Positions 28,550-55,565 of a stretch of DNA of 64,000 bases are shown here, in pieces; positions within the stretch are counted from its first letter, which is position 1; every line of letters starts with the position of its first letter. Both the position numbers and the translations under genes were made by a program. The DNA comes from Lineus longissimus. Its lineage: Eukaryota > Nemertea > Pilidiophora > Heteronemertea > Lineidae. The notes below the pieces were generated by a model. That model made no database searches. It was not told the origin of the DNA and worked only from the letters and a program-made list of their open reading frames with translations. Where the stretch lies: contig NC_088319.1 in NCBI RefSeq assembly GCF_910592395.1, positions 1,488,001-1,552,000 of the forward strand, written 5' to 3'.

Positions 28550-31500
28550 ATGGATACCGACCAGCGGAATATTCTCAAGGTGTTCCGGCCCAAGTTCGTA
28601 CGAGACGTCGACCAGATTGATGATTTGATCGATAATTTGGAAGCCAACAGTGTATTGGCCGATTCCACCATCGAGTCTATCAAGGTAACAATATATGAAA
28701 AGTGGACTTTGATAATCCCTGTAGGGGGCAGTGTCAGTGAGTCAAGTACCTTCCATGCGGGCCCCTCGTACGGTGCGAACAGCATAATGACAGTGCCAAC
28801 AGCTGATGACGTCAGACACTAACGAGCTAATTAACACAGCCATCCTTTATTGACAGAATCAGCTGTACACAATATTTTAACATACAGTTAATAGTAGAAC
28901 CTCTCTATTAAGGACACCCTTGGGACGGACAAATGCTATCGTTAGAGAGGTGTCCTGATTAGAGAGGTCAAATTGAATAGAAACAACAAACTTGGGACTA
29001 AAACTAGTGTCCTTAATAGAGAGGTTGTTCTTAATAATAATAGCGAGATGTCCGCTAAGAGAGGTTCCTCTGTATTTGTCATTTGCAGGACACAAATGGG
29101 CGACAAGAAAAAGCCAGAAAAATTCTCGATCATCTTGTACGTCGGCCTTCCCCGGACTTCGATAAATTCTACCAGTGTTTGATTTTAAGTGACAATGCCG
29201 ATCTTGCCGATAAACTAAAGCCGGAGTGTGCGCCATGCAAACGAATCCCTAAGAAGTCGTCGGCGCCCTCTGCATCCAAACTACCGTATCCGATTCAGCA
29301 TGTCGATGAACATGACAAGGGCGGAAGCGTTCGGCTGAAGTTTGGCGAGATGCCATCACAAGCAGCTGAAGAGAGCTTGATCGAGGAGGATGAGTTACCT
29401 GAAAGTATGTTACATCGAAGATCTGATGCAGATTTTCATCCTGATTTCAATAGCATTCCGCGAAGTTACTATTTATAGCTCACAAGGTCATTTGCATAAG
29501 ATATTGATGACGTTTTAGTCACGTGACAGTCGGTCATCGACACTTATTTTTACGCATTTGAGCTTATTTCCAAGTCAATTGTCTTTGACCCTGCATTGTT
29601 CTTAGCATGAATGATACCATAGAGTCAGAGAGAAAAATATTAAGAACAATTATGTAGTATTTTCAACACTCGGACATGTGCCAGGTTGAATCTAACTGCC
29701 CTAGTTAGAAAGCCTGAATCCTTTACGAAACGGCATGTTTGTCCGACATTGCCTGTAATTCAGCGATGGGGAAATAGAGGGCAGCAGCTGCAGTGACGTC
29801 ATCTTCGCGGAATGCTATTTACTATCTTATAAACTATGATTTGGTGCCTTGCAACTCAGTCAAGCTTTGATTTTGAATACCAGTGTAGTATGGGTCCAAG
29901 GAATTTGCAAATTATCATACCCCGCCCCCCAATAAAATCACCAGTTGGTGAAATCAAAATATCAGTCGTCAGTTCTGAGATATCACATAAAGGCATTCAA
30001 TGGCTAGGCATTTGGGATGTTGCCCCCCCCCTCCAAATGTCGTGCACTTTGCCAATAAACTTAAGGACTGCCAAAACCATCGACAGTTTTAGGAGTTTAC
30101 TAAAGTTCCTTTTCTATCAGTGACAATTCTTCAGTGTTAGAAATTTCAAGTGTGACTCTGACTTTGGGACGCTCTAAAGGTCATGTCATTCATTTCCAAG
30201 TCAAACAAAATTCTATTGATTATTATTGTCATTCCTTGTTCTAGCAGTAACATACATGGCATGGTAAGATATTTCACTGAATAACATTGTTTTTCAGAGT
30301 GGCCTGATCCAAACCGATCCATTCTCGACCTCGTCATAAAAAAAGTAGAGGCTGCCAACATGAAGACTCTGTTCGCTCATCAAAAGTCAACAGAGGTAAG
30401 TAACAAACAATCAAAAGTCAACAGAGGTAAGTAACAAACAATCAAAAGTCAACAGAGGTAAGTAACAAACAATCAAAAGTCAACAGAGGTAAGTAACAAA
30501 CAATCAAAAGTCAACAGAGGTAAGTAACAAACAATCAAAAGTCAACAGAGGTAAGTAACAAACAATCAAAAGTCAACAGAGGTAAGTAACAAACAATCAA
30601 AAGTCAACAGAGGTAAGTAACAAACAATCAAAAGTCAACAGAGGTAAGTAACAAACAATCAAAAGTCAACAGAGGTAAGGAACAAACAATCAAAAGTCAA
30701 CAGAGGTAAGTAACAAACAATCAAAAGTCAACAGAGGTAAGTAACAAACAATCAAAAGTCAACAGAGGTTAGTAACACACAATCAAAAGTCAACAGAGGT
30801 AAGTAACAAACAATCAAAAGTCAACAGAGGTAAGTAACAAACAATCAAAAGTCAACAGAGGTAAGTAACAAACAATCAAAAGTCAACAGAGGTAAGTAAC
30901 AAACAATCAAAAGTCAACAGAGGTAAGTAACAAATAATCAAAAGTCAACAGAGGTAAGTAACAAACAATCAAAAGTCAACAGAGGTAAGTAACAAACAAT
31001 CAAAAGTCAACAGAGGTAAGTAACAAACAATCAAAAGTCAACAGAGGTAAGTAACAAACAATCAAAAGTCAACAGAGGTAAGTAACAAACAATCAAAAGT
31101 CAACAGAGGTAAGTAACAAACAATCAAAAGTCAACAGAGGTAAGTAACAAACAATCAAAAGTCAACAGAGGTAAGTAACAAACAATCAAAAGTCAACAGA
31201 GGTAAGTAACAAACATTCAAAAGTCAACAGAGGTTAGTAACACACAATCAAAAGTCAACAGAGGTAAGTAACAAACAATCAAAAGTCAACAGAGGTAAGT
31301 AACAAACAATCAAAAGTCAACAGAGGTAAGTAACAAACAATCAAAAGTCAACAGAGGTAAGTAACAAACAATCAAAAGTCAACAGAGGTAAGTAACAAAC
31401 AATCAAAAGTCAACAGAGGTAAGTAACAAACAATCAAAAGTCAACAGAGGTTAGTAACACACAATCAAAAGTCAACAGAGGTAAGTAACACACAATCAAA

Positions 31501-34500
31501 AGTCAACAGAGGTAAGTAACAAACAATCAAAAGTCAACAGAGGTAAGTAACAAACAATCAAAAGTCAACAGAGGTAAGTAACAAACAATCAAAAGTCAAC
31601 AGAGGTAAGTAACAAACAATCAAAAGTCAACAGAGATAAGTAACAAACAATCCAATTAATATCATGGAGATTTTTTAAAGGAGTTCACCGTTTGTATTTT
31701 GAATCATCGGTCAGGAAAATAGAAATGCAGTTATACACAATGTCGCAGAGCAGTTATGTGCAAATGTCTTCCAACATCAAATGCTCTGCTACAAACTTTC
31801 TGACCTTTTAGTTTAAGGGCTACAAAATGACGTCGAACCCTCGCGGTCGGGCGATAATTATCAACAACACGAAGTTCAAGACATTAGGTGAAAGAACGGG
31901 TAATGACGCTGACGTTTTTGCACTCAAGCAGTTACTCATACCTCTGAAGTTCGCAACGATTGATTGGAACAATTACTCATATGAGGTAAGGGACTAAAAT
32001 TTAAAGGCAAAGGCTGTGTGGTTTTATTGTATTTTCTCGTGGGTCAGGTAAATAGAGATAAACACTGCAGTGGTGCAGTAATTGTGCATGCAAATCGCTG
32101 TAACTTGGTAATGTCAGCGTTTGTATGTCGATCATTATAACAGTAATGTTGAAATTGACATGCAGTATGGATTTCCACGATTGAAAATTTTCTGTGTTTG
32201 TCCCTCCTTGTGGTTTTTTTTTTTTTTTTTTTTTATATAATTTTTATTTTCAAAAGTATCACACAATACAGAATATCATACAGCAATACAAAACAGGTAC
32301 GTGTACATTTGAATTTTTTTTTTTTTTTTTTTTTTTAAACATAGACACCGTTCCCCCCTCCCCCTCCCCCCCTACGCTCCTTGTGGTCTTATTACAACAA
32401 TATCTCCATCCAATCTCATCATCTTAAAGCTGCAGAATTTCATGCCAATCCATCGTCATTGTGCGTATATCCATCTTTCTTTAGAGGAGACTTTAGCACT
32501 GATATTCACCGCCATTAAAGGGAACTGAAACCGCCAAGCCAGTTCGTATGACCTCGTTTTCATTTCCCGCGTATCGGGTAATCAGAACGAGGCATGAATG
32601 AAACATGGCGCCTAGCTGTCAATCATTGAGTGACGTCACTACTATGGAATTTACTACGAAAACTAATGAATGAAAGATTGCATGACTCACGTGATTCTCA
32701 CATGACTCTCAATAATAACAAATTGAACTGCGCATGCTCGGGCACTGGGGGCGGAGCTACAAATCTGAACTCGAATAGGAAGTTGGAAGTTTGACTTTCT
32801 CAGGTGGTGAAAGTCGAAAAGTTGAATAAATCGCTCGGCGGTTCCAGTTCCCTTTAAGTCAGCATGCAGAATTTGTGCGATCTGAATTTCGGAGAAGGGG
32901 AGCGGGGTCTGGTAAATTTTACAAATTTGACAACTTGTTTCGTTCAATACAATCCCAATAGCATCCCGCGAAGTTACTATTTATAGCTCACAAGGTCATT
33001 TGCATAAGATATTGATGACGTTTTAGTCACGTGACAGTCGGACATCGACACTTATTTCTACGCATTCTAGCTTATTTCAAAGTCAATTATCTTTGACCCT
33101 GCATTGTTTTTAGCATGAATGATACCCTAGAGTCAGAGAGAGAAATATTCAGAACAATTATGTAGTATTTCCAACACTCGGACATGTGCCAGATTGAATC
33201 TAACTGCCCTAGTTAGAAAGCCTGAATCCATTACGAAACCGCATGTTTGTCCGACATTGCCTGTAATTCAGCAATGGGGAAATAGAGGGCAGCAGCTGCA
33301 GTGACGTCATCTTCGCGGAATGCTATTGCAGCTTGTAAATCAATCCCTCCTTCTTTTCAGAGATTGAAAAGACAGTTGGAAACTGAATCGAGAAATGGTC
33401 AACACTGGGACGCCAGTGCGTTCATCTTGATTGTCCTAAGTCACGGAGTCCGCGGTGCAATCAAAACGGTTGATGAGGAGGACTTCAAAGTCGACGACAT
33501 CATGGAATGTTTCAACCGCGATAACTGCCCAGCATTGGTCGGGAAACCAAAGATGTTTTTTATACAAGCTTGCCAGGGAAGTGAGTAGGAGAAAATTATT
33601 TGATGTCAAGTGTTACTCCAGACAAGCAAGGAGTCCAAGTTGTTGCCAATTCAGCCAGTTGGTGCCTATTTTGATGACAGCCCCTTCGAAACTCAACTAA
33701 GCCATTGAGATACCAGGGCATTGCTAGATCAGGGAATTTCACAGAAATGGCGAGATCCAGCTGTGATGACGCAAACCAGAATGTAAGAAATAATAAAGAC
33801 TAGTCTTTATATATTCTTGCTACGGGTATATTCTTCTTGAAGAAGATGAATTTACTAGTTGCAAGAATTATAATGATAAATACCAGTAAATAATTACTAG
33901 TGAATTGTTTCTGCCTTCCAGCTACTCATGACAAGGGTGAAATGACCGACTCCGGCTCGGATGATTTGCCGACAGGAGTCGAAAATATCCAGATCTCTCA
34001 GGGAGAGAATATGACGGACGCAGGTGCGGAGAAGGTACCACTGTATAGCGACATGATCATCGTCAACGCAACCACGCCCAGTAAGTTCTCTTCATCTTTC
34101 ACAGTATTTCATTCGTCGTACATTTCGGGCAGCTCAAGTTCAGTCACTGTCACCTTGATATACATTCAGAAAAGAATTCATCCCTAATGAATCTTTGATA
34201 CAGACTATAAGTCCAATTCTAGGCCCACAAAGGGGAATATGAGAAGATTTGGGTGCATGACTAAATGCATGGCCTATCCAATAAATGAGAGTATATTAAG
34301 AATTGGGTAGAGTTAGTCAGAGCCAGTCCCCTTTGTGGGCCTAGAATTGGACTTAGAAAAATTTAGAGGGAAACCATTTAACTGTGAACTTCCTGTCTAT
34401 GTTAGGCGACGATAAGGAAGACCCTTCAAATTTCATCCAATTTTACCAGAACAAACTTTCTCCAAACATACCCTTGGGACTTTTTGGATATCTGAGATCA

Positions 34501-35760
34501 ATCCAAATAATATCGGGGAGGTTTTTTCTTCTGGTAATCAAGTCCCTCATTCGATAACTCTTAATGCATTACTGATAAACAAGCTGATGAAGCTCATTGA
34601 TTCATGAAAATGTCTGATCTGTCATTATTTTCGTCATGTTTTTGTTCCAGACTTCGTATCTTGGCGTTCTGAGAATGGCACATGGTTTATTCAAGCAATC
34701 GTTGATGTCTTTGCAAAATTTTCTCACAAGGAGCATCTCGGGGACCTACTCCTTAAGGTAAGCAGTCCCCCCCCCCTCAAGTCCGTCTGATGGGGTCAGG
34801 ACAAATCACATGTTAACCCCTTTTGGCTGTGGACGCTATTTTGACCAGCAGCCGCCCAGTCCTGAGCAGTGGCTAGTGTAATAGTTGCGACCTATAAGAA
34901 CAGAAAAGCCAATTTCGAAATATTTGCAACCTTGGAACGGTTGACCATAGGCACCACTATTTTGGCCAGAACTTGAAGCAATTGGAACCCTTTGAAAGCA
35001 AATTGAATGTCAATTTCAAGGGTGGGATTCTGTTCTTTGTTTAACAGAGAACGGCCTCCCGGGTTTCAAATGGGCATTCACCTCATTTTATAGGAGTTCT
35101 AATTGCTTTTCAAGGATTTCAAGTCCTAGCCAAAATGATGGTGCCTATGGTCAATTCTTATAGCTCATCATCACTTCAGTGGTCCTGAAAAAGTGTAAAT
35201 TAAATGATATACATGTAAGCCTACCGGCTCAATTGTTCAAAGTATTATGTTCTCCTGTGCCTCTCACAAATGAATGAATGAATATAAGAATTTCTATAGC
35301 GCCTGAATTAAAAGAAAAACTTAAATTCTCAGGCGCTTTACAAAGCAAAACACTCTCTGAAAAGGTGTTGTTTCAGGAGAGTTTTGAAAATGTCTATGGA
35401 ACCAGCAAGCCTGATGTTGGAAGGTAGCTGGTTCCATAGAACCGGTGATGACTTGTAAAAAGAACGGTCACCAAAGGTTTTGCACTTAGTGCGAGGGACC
35501 ACCAAAGTTGGAGCAATAACAGAGCGGAGATGGTAGGTGGAATGGTGCCACAGACCCCACTTCAACAATATGTTAACTGTAACATTCATCCTGTCCATTT
35601 TCAGGTAATGAACCTTGTAGCACGAGGACAAACGCGTGCATCGGGCAAAGTCCAGATCTCGAGTATAAGTTTCGAGACGCTGCGAGACAAAGTTTACTTC
35701 TTCCCGGGATTGCCGGAGCAGGAACTAGGAGGGAGCGGGCGTCTCTTGCTCTTGGACTGA
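28550..35760 (+). CDS. CARD-containing initiator-type caspase (eight coding exons)
   Basis: A cysteine protease that cleaves after Asp, of caspase-9/-2-like architecture. Coding exons are 28550-28684, 29089-29404, 30298-30395, 31812-31985, 33361-33580, 33922-34080, 34651-34757 and 35605-35760. All junctions are GT-AG with matching phases, giving 454 residues. What is seen: an N-terminal CARD-like domain (exons 1-2, about residues 1-95), a charged linker, and a p20 domain with PRGRAIIINN (Arg for the P1 Asp), ERTGNDADV, the catalytic His in VLSHG (H269) and the catalytic Cys in FFIQACQG (C312). An acidic inter-subunit linker (exon 6) with several Asp that could be cleaved follows, then a p10 domain with PLYSDMIIVNATTP, FVSWRSENGTWFIQ and LRDKVYFFPGL. 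QACQG replaces the commoner QACRG; vertebrate caspase-8/-10 also have Gln there. All catalytic parts are intact. Introns are loaded with transposons and a splice-donor minisatellite. Confidence 0.95.
28894..29072. mobile_element. Palindromic MITE with CTCTCTATTAAGGACA termini, caspase intron 1
   Basis: The left end gtagaacctctctattaagg and the inverse near the right end (gtccgctaagagaggttcc), with an internal inverse copy (gtccttaatagagaggttg), form a foldback structure. The same termini occur at 51512-51645. It ends 16 bp before the exon 2 acceptor border. Confidence 0.65.
29449..29819 (+). mobile_element. 371-bp MITE family 1, copy B (caspase intron 2)
   Basis: The termini are perfect inverted repeats of at least 17 bp (aatagcattccgcgaag and cttcgcggaatgctatt). 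It is nearly identical to copy C in intron 4 and lies in the same orientation. It starts 44 bp after the exon 2 donor. Confidence 0.9.
29836..30123 (+). mobile_element. Decayed LINE reverse-transcriptase C-terminal relic
   Basis: The open frame contains IIIPRPP...GI and a LPINLRTAKTIDSFRSLLK segment. This resembles the extreme C-terminus of non-LTR retrotransposon polymerases, where 'LWN.LP..IR...S...FK..LK' is usual. The middle is interrupted by frame damage. It is a fragment only. Confidence 0.5.
30381..31651 (+). repeat. 31-bp minisatellite of the caspase exon 3 splice donor, 41 copies
   Basis: Forty-one uninterrupted units of exactly 31 bp (1,271 bp, no indels by coordinate arithmetic). 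The first unit consists of the last 15 nt of caspase exon 3 (caaaagtcaacagag) and the first 16 nt of intron 3 (gtaagtaacaaacaat). Every unit therefore repeats the exon end and a consensus 5' splice site, cagag|gtaagt. A gttagt...cacac variant appears in units 13, 28 and 35, and one unit has gtaagg. The last unit reads cagag|ataagt and has lost the GT. Confidence 0.97.
32213..32336. repeat. Two poly-T tracts in caspase intron 4
   Basis: T-runs of about 20 nt occur at about 32213-32234 and 32314-32335, with AT-rich sequence between them. They could be old poly(A) tails of minus-strand retroelement copies; no body is recognisable. Confidence 0.5.
32515..32857. mobile_element. MITE with TTAA ends (caspase intron 4)
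   Basis: The left end ttaaagggaactgaaaccgc and the right end gcggttccagttccctttaa are inverted with few mismatches. TTAA at both borders is the target-site choice of piggyBac- and Kolobok-type transposases. About 343 bp, non-coding. Confidence 0.8.
32957..33327 (+). mobile_element. 371-bp MITE family 1, copy C (caspase intron 4)
   Basis: It matches copy B closely and in the same orientation. The left terminus has one change (aatagcatcccgcgaag). Its right end is only 33 bp from the first base of catalytic exon 5, so it probably lies at or near the branch-point region of that intron. Confidence 0.9.
34208..34355. mobile_element. 148-bp MITE with perfect 29-bp inverted termini (caspase intron 6)
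   Basis: The outer 29 bp, beginning taagtccaattctaggccca, are repeated perfectly in inverse at the right end (...tgggcctagaattggactta). It is non-coding. Confidence 0.85.
35270..35580 (-). mobile_element. 5'-truncated L2-like LINE tail (caspase intron 7)
   Basis: On the minus strand an open frame ends with PTLVVPRTKCKTFGDRSFY, SSPVLWNQLPSNIR and IFKTLLKQHLF. This is the conserved C-terminus of CR1/L2-clade reverse transcriptases, and the stop follows near 35338. The 3' UTR carries a ggcgct...agcgcc-type pairing and ends in an attcattcattcatt microsatellite tail, as L2-type elements do. It nearly abuts the last caspase exon (35605). Confidence 0.8.
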
Positions 35761-45165: not shown

Positions 45166-47294
45166 ATGAGGCCGCACTTGTTTATTCTTTTGGCTTTTTG
45201 TGTGGGATTCGTTGCTGTTACTGGGAAACCCCTGCCGAAGAACGAGAAAGTTAAAAATGGTAAGTCTCTGGGGCTTCGGAATCCTGTCCACTGTGCACAG
45301 CATAAGACTCTGGTTTCACAAACAGTTAGACGCTTGTGTCGTGCCCATATAATTTAAATACATGCCAATACCTGGACCGAAACTCTCCCATCAGGACGGT
45401 TCCCAGGATACTAGTAGCGTAGTTTTTTTCTTTCTATTTTCAAGCGTAACATTTTCAGTTGGCCGAGAGAGGCAGAAGAGGGATTTGCCCACGGTCAAAA
45501 GCTGGGGAAGCTTGAGAGTAGCGGGGCGGGAGAGAGCGCTAACCATGGCCTTGGCCTTTACACCGTGAACATGTGCACGCCATCACTTGCCTTTTAGGCA
45601 TGTTAGGGGGGATGGGAGTTATGGGGCCCTACACCAGGAGATGGGTCTCCCACGCTTCTCGGACCAATAGATCGATAACTTTAAACTTTGGTCCATTCAT
45701 TTCAGATATTGAACAAAGTAACCCATCAGTGCATGGAATAACGAGCGATTACGATGTCCAACTTGCAAACCTGCTAATTAACCCGTCAGAAAGTCCAGAT
45801 GGACATTCACTTAACCGCCGCACAGCACATGGTTTTGGTGCAGACGACGAACCTTCGTTGCACCATCCAACACAAGTTTCTGGAGATAACGAACCTTCGT
45901 TGGGCCACCATCCAACACAGGTTTCTGCAGAGAACGAACCTTCGTTGCACCATCCAACACAGGTTTCTGGAGACGATGAACCGTCGTTGGGCCACCATCC
46001 AACACAGGTTTCTGGAGAGGACGAACCTTCGTTGCACCATCCAACACAGGTTTCTGGAGACGATGAACCGTCCTTAGGCCTCCATCCAACACAGGTTTCT
46101 GGAGAGGACGAACCTTCGTTGCACCATCCAACACAGGTTTCTGGAGACGATGAACCGTCCTTGGGCCTCCATCCAACACAGGTTTCTGGAGAGGACGAAC
46201 CTTCGTTGCACCATCCAACACAGGTTTCTGGAGACGATGAACCGTCGTTGCACCATCCTACGCAGGTTTCTGGAGATGACGAACCTTCGTTGGGCCACCA
46301 TCTAACACAGGTTTCTGGAGAGGATGAACCTTCGTTGCACCATCCAACACAGGTTTCTGGAGACGATGAACCGTCCTTGGGCCACCATCCAACACAGGTT
46401 TCTGGAGACGACGAACCTTCGTTGCACCATCAAACACAGGTTTCTGGAGACCATGAACCGTCGTTGGGCCTCCATCCGACACATGTTTCTGGAGACGACG
46501 AACCGTTGTCGCACCATCCAACACAGGTTTCTGGAGACGATGAACCGTCGTTGGGCCTCCATCCAACACAGGTTTCTGGAGACGACGAACCTTCGTTGCA
46601 CCATCCAACACAGGTTTCTGGAGACGATGAACCGTCATTGCACCATCCGACACAGGTTTCTGGAGAGGACGAACCGTCGGTGCACCATCTGACACAGGTT
46701 TCTGGAGAGGACGAACCTTCGTTGCACCATCCAACACAGGTTTCTGGAGACGATGAACCGTCGTTGGGCCTCCATCCTACACAGGTTTCTGGAGACGACG
46801 GACCTTCGTTGCATCATCCAACACAGGTTTCTGGAGACGACGAACCATTGTTGCACCATCCCACACAGGTTTCTGGAGAGAATGAACCGTCGTTGCACCT
46901 TCCAAGACCAGTTTCTTTGCTCATTGTTCATTCAAGACAACGCTCTGGAGACGAGGAAAGTGTCTTGAACAGCAGGACTCGGAATTCGAAAGGATATGAC
47001 TCGATCATCAGGGAGAATCTCCCCAGTGCAGCAGACGATGGCACTCCTTTGCTGAACAGCAGTTCGCCAGTATCAAGAACGTCAGTGATTGTGTACGCAA
47101 ACTTGACAGAAGATATACAGCCATCTAGCCATCCAGCCACACGAGATCATCTGACGAATGCGGAACCTAATCTGACATTACTGATCTCTGTGTCTTTCGT
47201 CAGTCTAACTGCTGTAATTCTCATCTGCCTTTTCCTCTTGTCGTCCCGCAACAGAAAAGACAAAGGTGACCAGTTAAGCATTGTAGACGTTTAA
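45166..47294 (+). CDS. Repeat-rich type I membrane protein (two coding exons)
   Basis: Unrecognised family. Coding exons are 45166-45259 and 45706-47294 (phase 1 junction, donor aaaaatg|gtaagt, acceptor ttcatttcag), giving 560 residues. What is seen: a signal peptide (MRPHLFILLAFCVGFVAVTG); a short ectodomain with the dibasic NRR; 25 tandem units of 14 or 15 residues (residues 77-435) with consensus G-D/E-D-E-P-S-L-(G)-H/L-H-P-T-Q-V-S; a Ser/Thr-rich region; a transmembrane helix (about 521-543); and a 17-residue basic cytoplasmic tail ending SIVDV. The start is supported by an upstream acceptor (45139/45140) and the signal peptide. The protein is probably a cell-surface stalk or mucin-like protein; Ser/Thr in each unit could be O-glycosylated. 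Unit number is likely to vary between alleles. An alternative acceptor at about 45460 stays open only about 34 codons. Confidence 0.8.
45840..46916 (+). repeat. Coding minisatellite, 42/45-bp units, 25 copies
   Basis: It encodes the 25 peptide units of the membrane protein. Nine units are 45 bp (an extra Gly codon after Leu) and sixteen are 42 bp. The two types often alternate, giving an 87-bp higher-order period in the first half. Long open frames on the minus strand here are by-products. Confidence 0.95.
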
Positions 47295-51645: not shown

Positions 51646-53339
51646 ACCATAAAATCGTGAGTTATACAGACTCGTGCACACGTTTTTTTCAAATAATTTA
51701 ATAAGATAATGATTGCGGACAAATACTTAACCTTAACTGATTCATTATTGTTGTCTCATATAATATACAGCAGATGAATATTGCACAGCAGATGAATATT
51801 GCACAGCAGATGCATCAAAAGGCTCAATTGCAGAATCCCTGACAAATGTCAAAATGAAACGGCCAGGGGCCATTGTGCTCACCGTATACATCTTTTAGTA
51901 GGCAGGATCATGCTTAGTTTAGAGGTGAATATGGTGAACACAATCAGGCATGAAGACTTTTTTTAGATGTGTATTGATGTCAAGTAATAAGACAGGGCAG
52001 TATATATAAGTTTATGATCCAACCAATAATTGTCTATGACATCAACAAGATCAATATCGTGTGATTGCTAAGAGTCCCTGCAATAAAAAATTCATCGAAA
52101 AAAAGTCATTAATAAGCAAGATATTGCACGTCCTACTTTTTCAGTTTTGACCCCCTGGTGGCCAAATCAAGAATCAGATGAGGCCAAAATTCGGTGTCAG
52201 AGATTATCTGATGTAGGGGGTTACATGTACCAACTTTCAAGTTCATAGCTTCAGCAGTTAAGAAACGTGCCATAGTTACACTCTAATGGCCAATTTACGC
52301 CATTTGACCTCTGTGACCTAGAAAAGGAGGTCAAATCCAAAAATCGTAGGACATGTGGTGTATCCTTGCTAGAAGTCCCTGCCATAAAAATTTTATCGAA
52401 AACAATTCACTCAAATAAGCAAGATATTGCACTTCTTCCTTTTTCCATTATGGCCCCCTGGTGGCCGAATAAAGAATCAGATCAGGCCAAAATTCGGCAT
52501 CAAAGGTTATCTGATGTAGGGGGTTATATGCACCAAGTTTCAAGTTCATAGCTTTACTGGTTAAGAAACGTGCCATAGTTTACACTCCAACGGCCAATTT
52601 ACGCCATATGACCTCTGTGACCTTGAAAAGTAGGTCAAATTGAAAACCCGTAAGACATGTGATGTATTCTTCCTAAGAGTACCTACCATAAACATTTTAT
52701 CGAAAACAAGTCACTTATAAGCGAGATATCACACTTTTTAGATATCCACTTTTGGCCCCCTGGTGGCAAAGTTGAGAATCAGATCAAACTGAAATTCAGC
52801 ACCAGAGGCTATGTGATATAGGGGGTTATATGTACTAAGTTTCAAGTTCATAGCTTTAGTGGTTAAGAAACGTGCCATAGTTTACACTCTAACGGCCAAT
52901 TTCGCCATATGACCTCTGTGAACTTGAAAAGTAGGTCAAATTAAAAACCCGTATGATATAAGATGTATATTTGCTATGAGTACCTACAACACAAGTTTCA
53001 TCGAAAACAAGTCACTAATAAGCGAGATATCACACTTTTTAGATATCGACATTTGGCCCCCTGGTGGCCAAGTTGAGAATCAGATCGGACCGAAATTCAG
53101 TGTCAGAGGTCACCTGACCTAGGGGGTGCTGTGTACAAAGTTTTTAAGTTCATAGCCCTAGCGGTTAAGAAACGTGCCACTGTTTTTTAAATAGGATACG
53201 ACGACGGACGATGGACGACGACGACGGACGACGGACACTGCGGTATTACATAAGACTCCCCTACAGTGAGCCAAAAATCAAGAAAATGTAAGATACAAGT
53301 CAGAAAAGACAAAAGGGAAAAGATAAAAAATAATAAAAT

Positions 53340-53410: not shown

Positions 53411-54479
53411 CACAAAACATGCAATTTCGGCCATATCTGTGTCTGCGTTGTGACCTCTGTGACCTCGACAAGTAGGTCAAATTATAAACCCATATGATAT
53501 ATGATGTATCCTTGCTATGAGTACCTACCACAAAAGTTTTATCGAAAACAAGTCATCAATAAGCGAGATATCACACTTTTTAGATATCCACATTCGACCC
53601 CCTGGTGGCCAAATTGAGAATCAGATCGGACCGATATTCAGCACAGGAGGTTATCTGATATAGGGGGTTATATGTACCAAGTTTCAAGTTCATAGCTGTG
53701 GCGGTTGAGAAACGTGCCATAGTTACGCTGAAACAGCCAATTTATGCCATTTGACCTCTGCAACCATGAAAAGTAGGTCAAATTAAAAAATTGTACGATA
53801 TATGATGTATCCTTGCTATGAGTACCCACCACGAAAGTTTTATTGAAAACAAGTTATTGATAAGCGAATTATCACACTTTTTAGGTATCCACATTCGGCC
53901 CCCTGGTGGCCAAGTTGAGAATCAGATCAGACTGAAATTCAGCACCAGAGGTTATCTGGTATAGGGGGTTATATGTATTAAATTTCAAGTTCATAGCTGT
54001 GGAGGTTGAAAAACGTGCCATAGTTACACTGAAACAGCCAATTTATGCCATTTGACCTCTGTGACCTTGAAAAGTAGGTCAAATTAAAAACCCGTATGAT
54101 ATATGATGTATCCTTGCTATGAGTACCTACCACAAAAATTTTATTCCAAACAAGTCATTAATAAGCGAGATATCACACTTTTTAGATATCTACATTCGGC
54201 CCCCTGGTGGCCAAATTAAGAATCAGATCGGACCGAAATTTAGTGTCACAGGTCATCTGACCAAGGGAGTCCTGTGTACAAAGTTACAAGTTCATAGGCT
54301 TAGCGGTTAAGAAACGTGCCACTGTTTTTGAAACAGGATACGACGACGACGACGGACGACGACAGACGACGACGGACGACGGACACTGCGGTATCGTAAA
54401 GACTCCCCTACGGTGAGCCAAAAATCAAGAAAATGTAAGGTACAAGTCAGAAAAGACAAAAGTGAAAAGATAAAAAAAA

Positions 54480-54555: not shown

Positions 54556-55565
54556 AAAAACACGAAACATGCAATTTCGGCCATATCTGTGTCTGCGTTG
54601 TGACCTCTGTGACCTTGACAAGTAGGTCAAATTAAAAACCCATATGATATATGATGTATCCTTGCTATGAGTACCTACCACAAAAGTTTTATCGAAAACA
54701 AGTCATCAAGCGAGATATCACACTTTTTAGATATCCACATTCGACCCCCTGGTGGCCAAATTGAGAATCAGATCGGACCGATATTCAGCACAAGACGTTA
54801 TCTGATATAGGGGGTTATATGTACCAAGTTTCAAGTTCATAGCTGTGGCGGTTGAGAAACGTGCCATAGTTACACTGAAACAGCCAATTTATGCCATTTG
54901 ACCTCTGCAACCTTGAAAAGTAGGTCAAATTAAAAACCCGTACGATATATGATGTATCCTTGCTATTAGTACCCACCACGAAAGTTTTATTGAAAACAAG
55001 TTATTGATAAGCGAATTATCACACTTTTTAGGTATCCACATTCGGCCCCCTGGTGGCCAAGTTGAGAATCAGATCAGACCGAAATTCAGCACCAGAGGTT
55101 ATCTGGTATAGGGGGTTATATGTACTAAGTTTCAAGTTCATAGCTGTGGAGGTTGAAAAACGTGCCATAGTTACACTGAAACAGCCAATTTACGCCATTT
55201 GACCTCTGTGACCTTGAAAAGTAGGTCAAATTAAAAACCCGTATGATATATGATGTACCCTTGCTATGAGTACCTACCACAAAAATTTCATTCCAAACAA
55301 GTTATTAATAAGCGAGATATCACACTTTTTAGATATCTACATTCGGCCCCCTGGTGGCCAAATTAAGAATCAGATCGGACCGAAATTTAGTGTCACAGGT
55401 CATCTGACCAAGGGAGTCCTGTGTACAAAGTTACAAGTTCATAGGCTTAGCGGTTAAGAAACGTGCCACTGTTTTTGAAACAGGATACGACGACGACGGA
55501 CGACGACGGACGACGACGGACGACGGACACTGCGGTGTTGTATAGACTCCCCTACGGTGAGCCAA

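Follow-up and report, generated by a model that had tools for sequence, protein, structure and literature searches.

The caspase gene and the array at its exon 3 border

A stretch of 64,000 nucleotides (nt) of the nemertean Lineus longissimus (NC_088319.1, positions 1,488,001 to 1,552,000 of the forward strand; C12:1488001-1552000 in the contig numbering used here, and referred to as the window) contains the gene model of a CARD-caspase. A minisatellite of 31-base-pair (bp) units begins at the end of exon 3 of this gene and continues through most of intron 3, repeating the exon-intron border and its 5' splice site (donor). Tandem Repeats Finder reports 41.1 copies with 98% matches and 0% indels, and a unit-by-unit split likewise gives 41 units in register, confirming the array that was originally predicted from the sequence. 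The positions of the features are given in Table 1.

The host gene had been named as a caspase and this identification stands. The Peptidase_C14 matches on exons 4 and 5 exceed the curated cut-off of 21.4 bits, while exons 1 and 2 each match half of a CARD at 12.3 and 17.9 bits, below the cut-off of 23.9. Among 45 homologues the top match, with 33% identity across the whole query, is from a gastropod and is labelled with CARD and C14 domains. None of the seven exons contains a stop, and the SHG and QACQG sequences, which we take to be caspase motifs, are kept.

Table 1. Coordinates of the caspase gene, its array and the other donor arrays at apparent exon ends (plain numbers are positions in the window; C1 to C16 are contigs of the genome)
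Feature	Position	Strand	Remarks
CARD-caspase gene model, seven exons	28550-34757	+	GT/AG borders, in frame; sequence-based model, 3' end provisional
Caspase exon 1	28550-28684	+	Sub-threshold CARD half
Caspase exon 2	29089-29404	+	Sub-threshold CARD half
Caspase exon 3, 98 nt	30298-30395	+	GT/AG borders, open frame; no Pfam match; final 17 nt belong to copy 1
Predicted RNA hairpin	30367-30395	+	3' arm, AACAGAG, runs up to the true border
Minisatellite, 41 x 31 bp	30379-31652	+	Each unit has the final 17 nt of exon 3 and the first 14 nt of intron 3
True 5' splice site GTAAGT (donor 1)	30396-30401	+	Sole unit end keeping the frame open
Intron 3, 1416 nt	30396-31811	+	Extends 159 nt past the array
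Unit 41, donor destroyed	31619-31649	+	Reads GAGATAAGT, no GT
Caspase exon 4	31812-31985	+	Phase 0 to donor 1; Peptidase_C14, 28.1 bits
Caspase exon 5	33361-33580	+	Peptidase_C14, 61.2 bits
Caspase exons 6 and 7	33922-34080, 34651-34757	+	
SMG1-like exon end	C1:108880	+	28-bp unit, five donors, just 4 nt of exonic homology
Proline-rich open frame end	C1:22603693	+	Three 21-bp copies; no Pfam match
HOPS-type exon end	C3:20731488 (locus C3:20730500-20733700)	-	28-bp array; 26 CAGGGTRAGT sites in locus
Apparent exon end	C11:18785791		40-bp unit; no Pfam match
CCDC93-like exon end	C16:63505-64480	-	40-42-bp units; CCDC93_N, E 5.1e-39

The array unit reads ATCAAAAGTCAACAGAG followed by GTAAGTAACAAACA, the start of the unit being an arbitrary choice. 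The first of these, 17 nt in length, is the exonic homology, so the proposal that each unit is made of the end of exon 3 and the start of intron 3 is borne out in both register and make-up. The array covers the last 17 nt of exon 3; the working border thus falls in copy 1, and the other copies belong to intron 3. The units are identical in 34 cases out of 41, with the remaining seven holding six different substitution types. CAGAGGTAAGT is present in 36 units, the true donor included, and GT is kept in 40. According to the original prediction, the true donor was followed by forty intact consensus donors. There are instead 35 exact copies, four altered sites that retain GT (GTAAGG in unit 10; GTTAGT in units 13, 28 and 35, each of which has another, linked change) and one dead site in unit 41. 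It is impossible that 41 in-register copies arose by chance. The register, the identity of most units and the linked variants of units 13, 28 and 35 are as in a minisatellite that is turning over, the homogeneity being at most an indirect sign of an unstable copy number.

Within the window, two 16-nt pieces and one 10-nt piece of the unit occur on neither strand outside the array. A DNA search of the genome (391,118,348 bases in 30 contigs) with positions 30300-31800, in which 40 of 800 first-look candidates were scored and simple repeats were skipped, recovered the window and 40 further matches, every one of them confined to the tail of intron 3 (1365-1467 of the query). This tail, at 31664-31766, matches an unrelated dispersed repeat present on many chromosomes, with 81–90% identity in the longer matches.

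The array, or its copy number of 41, might be an error of the assembly. However, variant units break the monotony of the repeat and there are other such arrays in the genome. The tnLinLong1.1 assembly of L. longissimus is described as having approximately 79-fold PacBio HiFi coverage, with reads sheared to 12–20 kilobases (kb) (PMC8593623). The reads are thus about ten times the length of the 1.27-kb array, and an assembly artefact is very unlikely.

Reading frame and donor strength

For each of the 41 unit borders in turn, exon 3 of the caspase was terminated there and joined to the other exons. Only the first border leaves the frame open. From donor 1 to the acceptor before 31812, exons 3 and 4 are joined in phase 0. 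The original prediction of an amplified donor cluster on a real exon-intron border was right. One of the 40 alternative ends (one extra unit) leads to a stop at codon 194. The remaining 39, among them the unit that lacks GT, lead to a stop at codon 195 within the second unit, and so does retention of intron 3. In translations of the model every alternative product has the CARD and linker and lacks the catalytic domain; use of the other copies would therefore only truncate the protein. In a simple duplex model with the U1 5' end, none of the seven donors in the gene model pairs more strongly than that of exon 3 (-12.3, against -4.2 to -10.1 for the others).

These frame effects could be put to use if the 35 exact extra donors competed with donor 1, or bound U1 without splicing. 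Some transcripts would then be truncated after the CARD or would keep intron 3, and array length would set the caspase dose and could give a CARD-only inhibitor. The stops at codons 194–195, which leave the CARD and linker whether another unit end is used or the intron is retained, are consistent with such a rheostat, as is a published case in which a cryptic donor 86 nt from the real one is linked to intron retention (PMC8706089). It is an unlikely explanation, however, in that similar arrays are present in unrelated genes, the array donors are not spared by mutation, and the border-spanning repeats of amphioxus known as mirages are reported to be spliced normally (PMC3087553, PMC3902484).

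Since any mis-splicing of intron 3 truncates the protein, the presence there of forty extra donor-like sites might also be seen as a damaging expansion that has lowered or abolished caspase expression in this individual, the gene being on its way to loss. This is very improbable given the open state of all seven exons, the retention of SHG and QACQG, and the comparable arrays in SMG1- and CCDC93-like genes.

Mutations, acceptors and folding

Three of the six substitution types in the array fall in GTAAGT, which makes up 6 of the 31 unit positions. This indicates that the donor is not protected from mutation, with little power from six events, and selection on the array donors was rejected with the same reservation. 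No acceptor-like site was found in the caspase array, in which the longest pyrimidine run is 3 and there is neither a CTRAY nor an AWTAAA motif. The best pyrimidine share before an AG is 42%, compared with 58–84% at the six acceptors of the gene model. Having no acceptor of its own the array makes no exons, and a recursive splicing ladder or a source of new exons was rejected in the absence of an acceptor before each donor.

The lack of acceptors also bears on whether the array created intron 3, through the tandem duplication of an AGGT segment as in the Rogers model of intron gain. Each intact unit does have AGAG directly before GT, placing an AG beside the donor, and the model is in print (PMC4974935). 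Against this, the array has no pyrimidine tract or CTRAY motif, and no copy supplies an acceptor. The same chromosome also has a diverged relative of the caspase (31–38% identity), with an acceptor approximately two codons from the same place, so intron 3 is probably older than the array, and such an origin for the intron is most improbable. In the stretch examined of the nearest caspase relative, no array precedes the acceptor that corresponds.

The RNA of the array is predicted to fold no better than shuffled sequence (z 0.59; 152 of 200 shuffles fold as well), and strong folding of the array was rejected. A predicted hairpin at the end of exon 3, found post hoc, has an energy of -10.3 kcal/mol and a z of -2.65, with 3 of 200 shuffles as good, while the z for the whole of exon 3 is only -1.01. 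This hairpin may mask or mark donor 1, hindrance and help being equally plausible. If it marks the true donor against dozens of equal, truncating donors, slippage in copy number might tune both the caspase dose and a CARD-only inhibitor differently in different individuals or somatic lineages. Such a heritable, length-variable splicing rheostat is very unlikely.

Donor arrays elsewhere in the genome

Other donor arrays were sought in the genome with a stricter pattern, three AGGTRAGT separated by gaps of 2–32 nt, and with a looser pattern based on GGTRAGT, whose listed places run from C1 to part of C4. The stricter search, which has a built-in reversed-pattern control, found 58 places against 78 in that control. 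These group into 14 loci, the top one being the caspase array with 26 of the 58 places. The looser search found 442 places against 274. Enrichment of donor arrays across the genome was rejected on the stricter search, although the looser search did exceed its control. Among the matches listed, many of the looser-search places are accounted for by a dispersed 16-bp satellite. This satellite, GGTGAGTAGGCGAAAT, is present on several chromosomes (for example at C1:11750277 and C3:12345984) and has a donor-like motif that inflates the counts.

The upstream DNA was read at 11 of the 14 stricter-search loci (all except C4:10223721, C4:25296898 and C6:6641314). Exon ends are apparent at four of these, the caspase, the SMG1-like, the CCDC93-like and the C11 loci, and the other seven are without a convincing exon. 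With two further loci from the looser search there are at least five donor arrays at apparent exon ends beyond that of the caspase (Table 1), so uniqueness of the array was rejected.

The SMG1-like assignment comes from two open stretches that, when joined by eye, match Pfam SMG1 with E 8.6e-19; the stretch at the border by itself gives only E 0.1. The nonsense-mediated decay kinase gene itself, as far as this assignment goes, carries extra donors. The first units of the CCDC93-like array are 42 bp and readable in frame, as is the unit at C1:22603693, which is a multiple of three. Exons next to the C3 array match Pfam TPR_Vps41 (E 1.7e-6; 27.9 against a cut-off of 27), with no match in a PDB search, and this HOPS-type gene is presumably VPS39-like. 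The VPS39-like array holds a repeated higher-order block. At the non-caspase loci, translation was of read-through past the first donor only; a stop is reached after 1 nt at the SMG1-like locus, 29 at the VPS39-like locus, 72 at C11, 96 at C1:22603693 and 207 at the CCDC93-like locus.

An expansion at the border of a cell-death protease gene had been regarded as unusual. This part of the original prediction is not supported, as repeats of this kind form a named class and the same genome has donor arrays at SMG1-, CCDC93- and VPS39-like genes. There is therefore nothing special to a cell-death protease.

Origin and significance of the array

The caspase array is best explained, with a probability of approximately 0.78, as a neutral, slippage-born intronic minisatellite of the mirage type, with donor 1 in use. 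Its mutational origin, the choice of donor and its neutrality are inferred as follows. A 31-bp segment that by chance carried the exon 3/intron 3 border would have been duplicated through replication slippage or unequal exchange, perhaps aided by the ATC at both ends. The duplicates would then have expanded and been homogenised to 41 copies, all except the first becoming intron sequence. Donor 1 would be the site used, being the strongest of the gene model, giving an exon of normal length from its acceptor, and alone leading to the full-length protein. The array would be effectively neutral, causing at most some mis-splicing to mRNAs with a reading frame that ends beyond the CARD and linker. 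Neutral slippage would explain the position of the array, its homogeneity, its unprotected donors and the recurrence of such arrays in unrelated genes. Sequestration of U1 or tuning of the caspase by the array is possible but unsupported, as is the modulation of intron 3 removal first suggested, and nothing in the analysis points to a regulatory role.

Several observations weigh against this explanation. The comparison of mutations covers six events. The exact array copies equal donor 1 in the U1 duplex model, and in intron 4 of DOK7 the intron-proximal of two donors is described as preferred (PMC5585400); taken together, these would predict trouble at the caspase array. The predicted hairpin marks donor 1 only, the one array copy tested having none. 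The excess of places over the control in the looser genome search is a further point, and the normal splicing and length instability of the caspase array are themselves only inferred.

With this array of 41 copies, the mirage-type repeats described in amphioxus are seen in a further animal phylum. The same genome has at least five additional donor arrays at apparent exon ends, including those of SMG1- and CCDC93-like genes. Together the arrays provide a natural experiment in how the spliceosome picks the right donor among dozens of near-identical sites 21–42 nt apart.

Other repeats in the window

A coding minisatellite at 45842-46916 has 25 copies of a unit of approximately 42 bp within a 583-codon open frame, and encodes a repeated GDDEPSLHHPTQVS-like peptide. 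A 301-bp unit is present in three tandem arrays (52065-53179, 53451-54321 and 54601-55468), with short ACG-rich repeats between them.

Comparison with known systems

In human segmental duplications, internal minisatellites are described that modify exon-intron structure (PMC2812944). They resemble the caspase array in having units of approximately 30 bp, some of them at exon-intron borders, and differ in having four units on average and in that some create novel introns, of which the caspase array gives no sign. Border-spanning repeats outside amphioxus are thus already published in these human cases. The intronic minisatellites of earthworm metallothionein are not border-spanning in the account given of them. 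Intron gain by tandem AGGT duplication, for which both a model and cases are published (PMC4974935), shares with the caspase array a tandem duplication with AG beside GT. In contrast, the caspase unit is without acceptor signals and its intron appears to predate the array. Decoy or pseudo-5' splice sites are likewise extra strong donors near a real one (PMC8706089). In that work single sites, or a few, were assayed in reporters, whereas the caspase array, known from sequence, has dozens of near-identical donors and no acceptor.

The closest likeness is to the tandem repeats across exon-intron borders that were named mirages in amphioxus Adh3, and which are also described in globin and TnC genes, with imperfect repeats of a similar kind in PGBD5 (PMC3087553, PMC3902484). 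What those papers report of their effect on splicing is that there is none. The mirages of Adh3, TnC, BflGb6 and BflGb9 are from a cephalochordate rather than a nemertean, and BflGb6 haplotypes have 3–6 units compared with the 41 found here. At the level of sequence the caspase array has the features of a mirage: its unit spans a real border, the copies retain splice signals, and with the copies read as intron the coding sequence runs on unbroken. The array belongs to a known kind of repeat, of which it is a large and regular case in another animal phylum.

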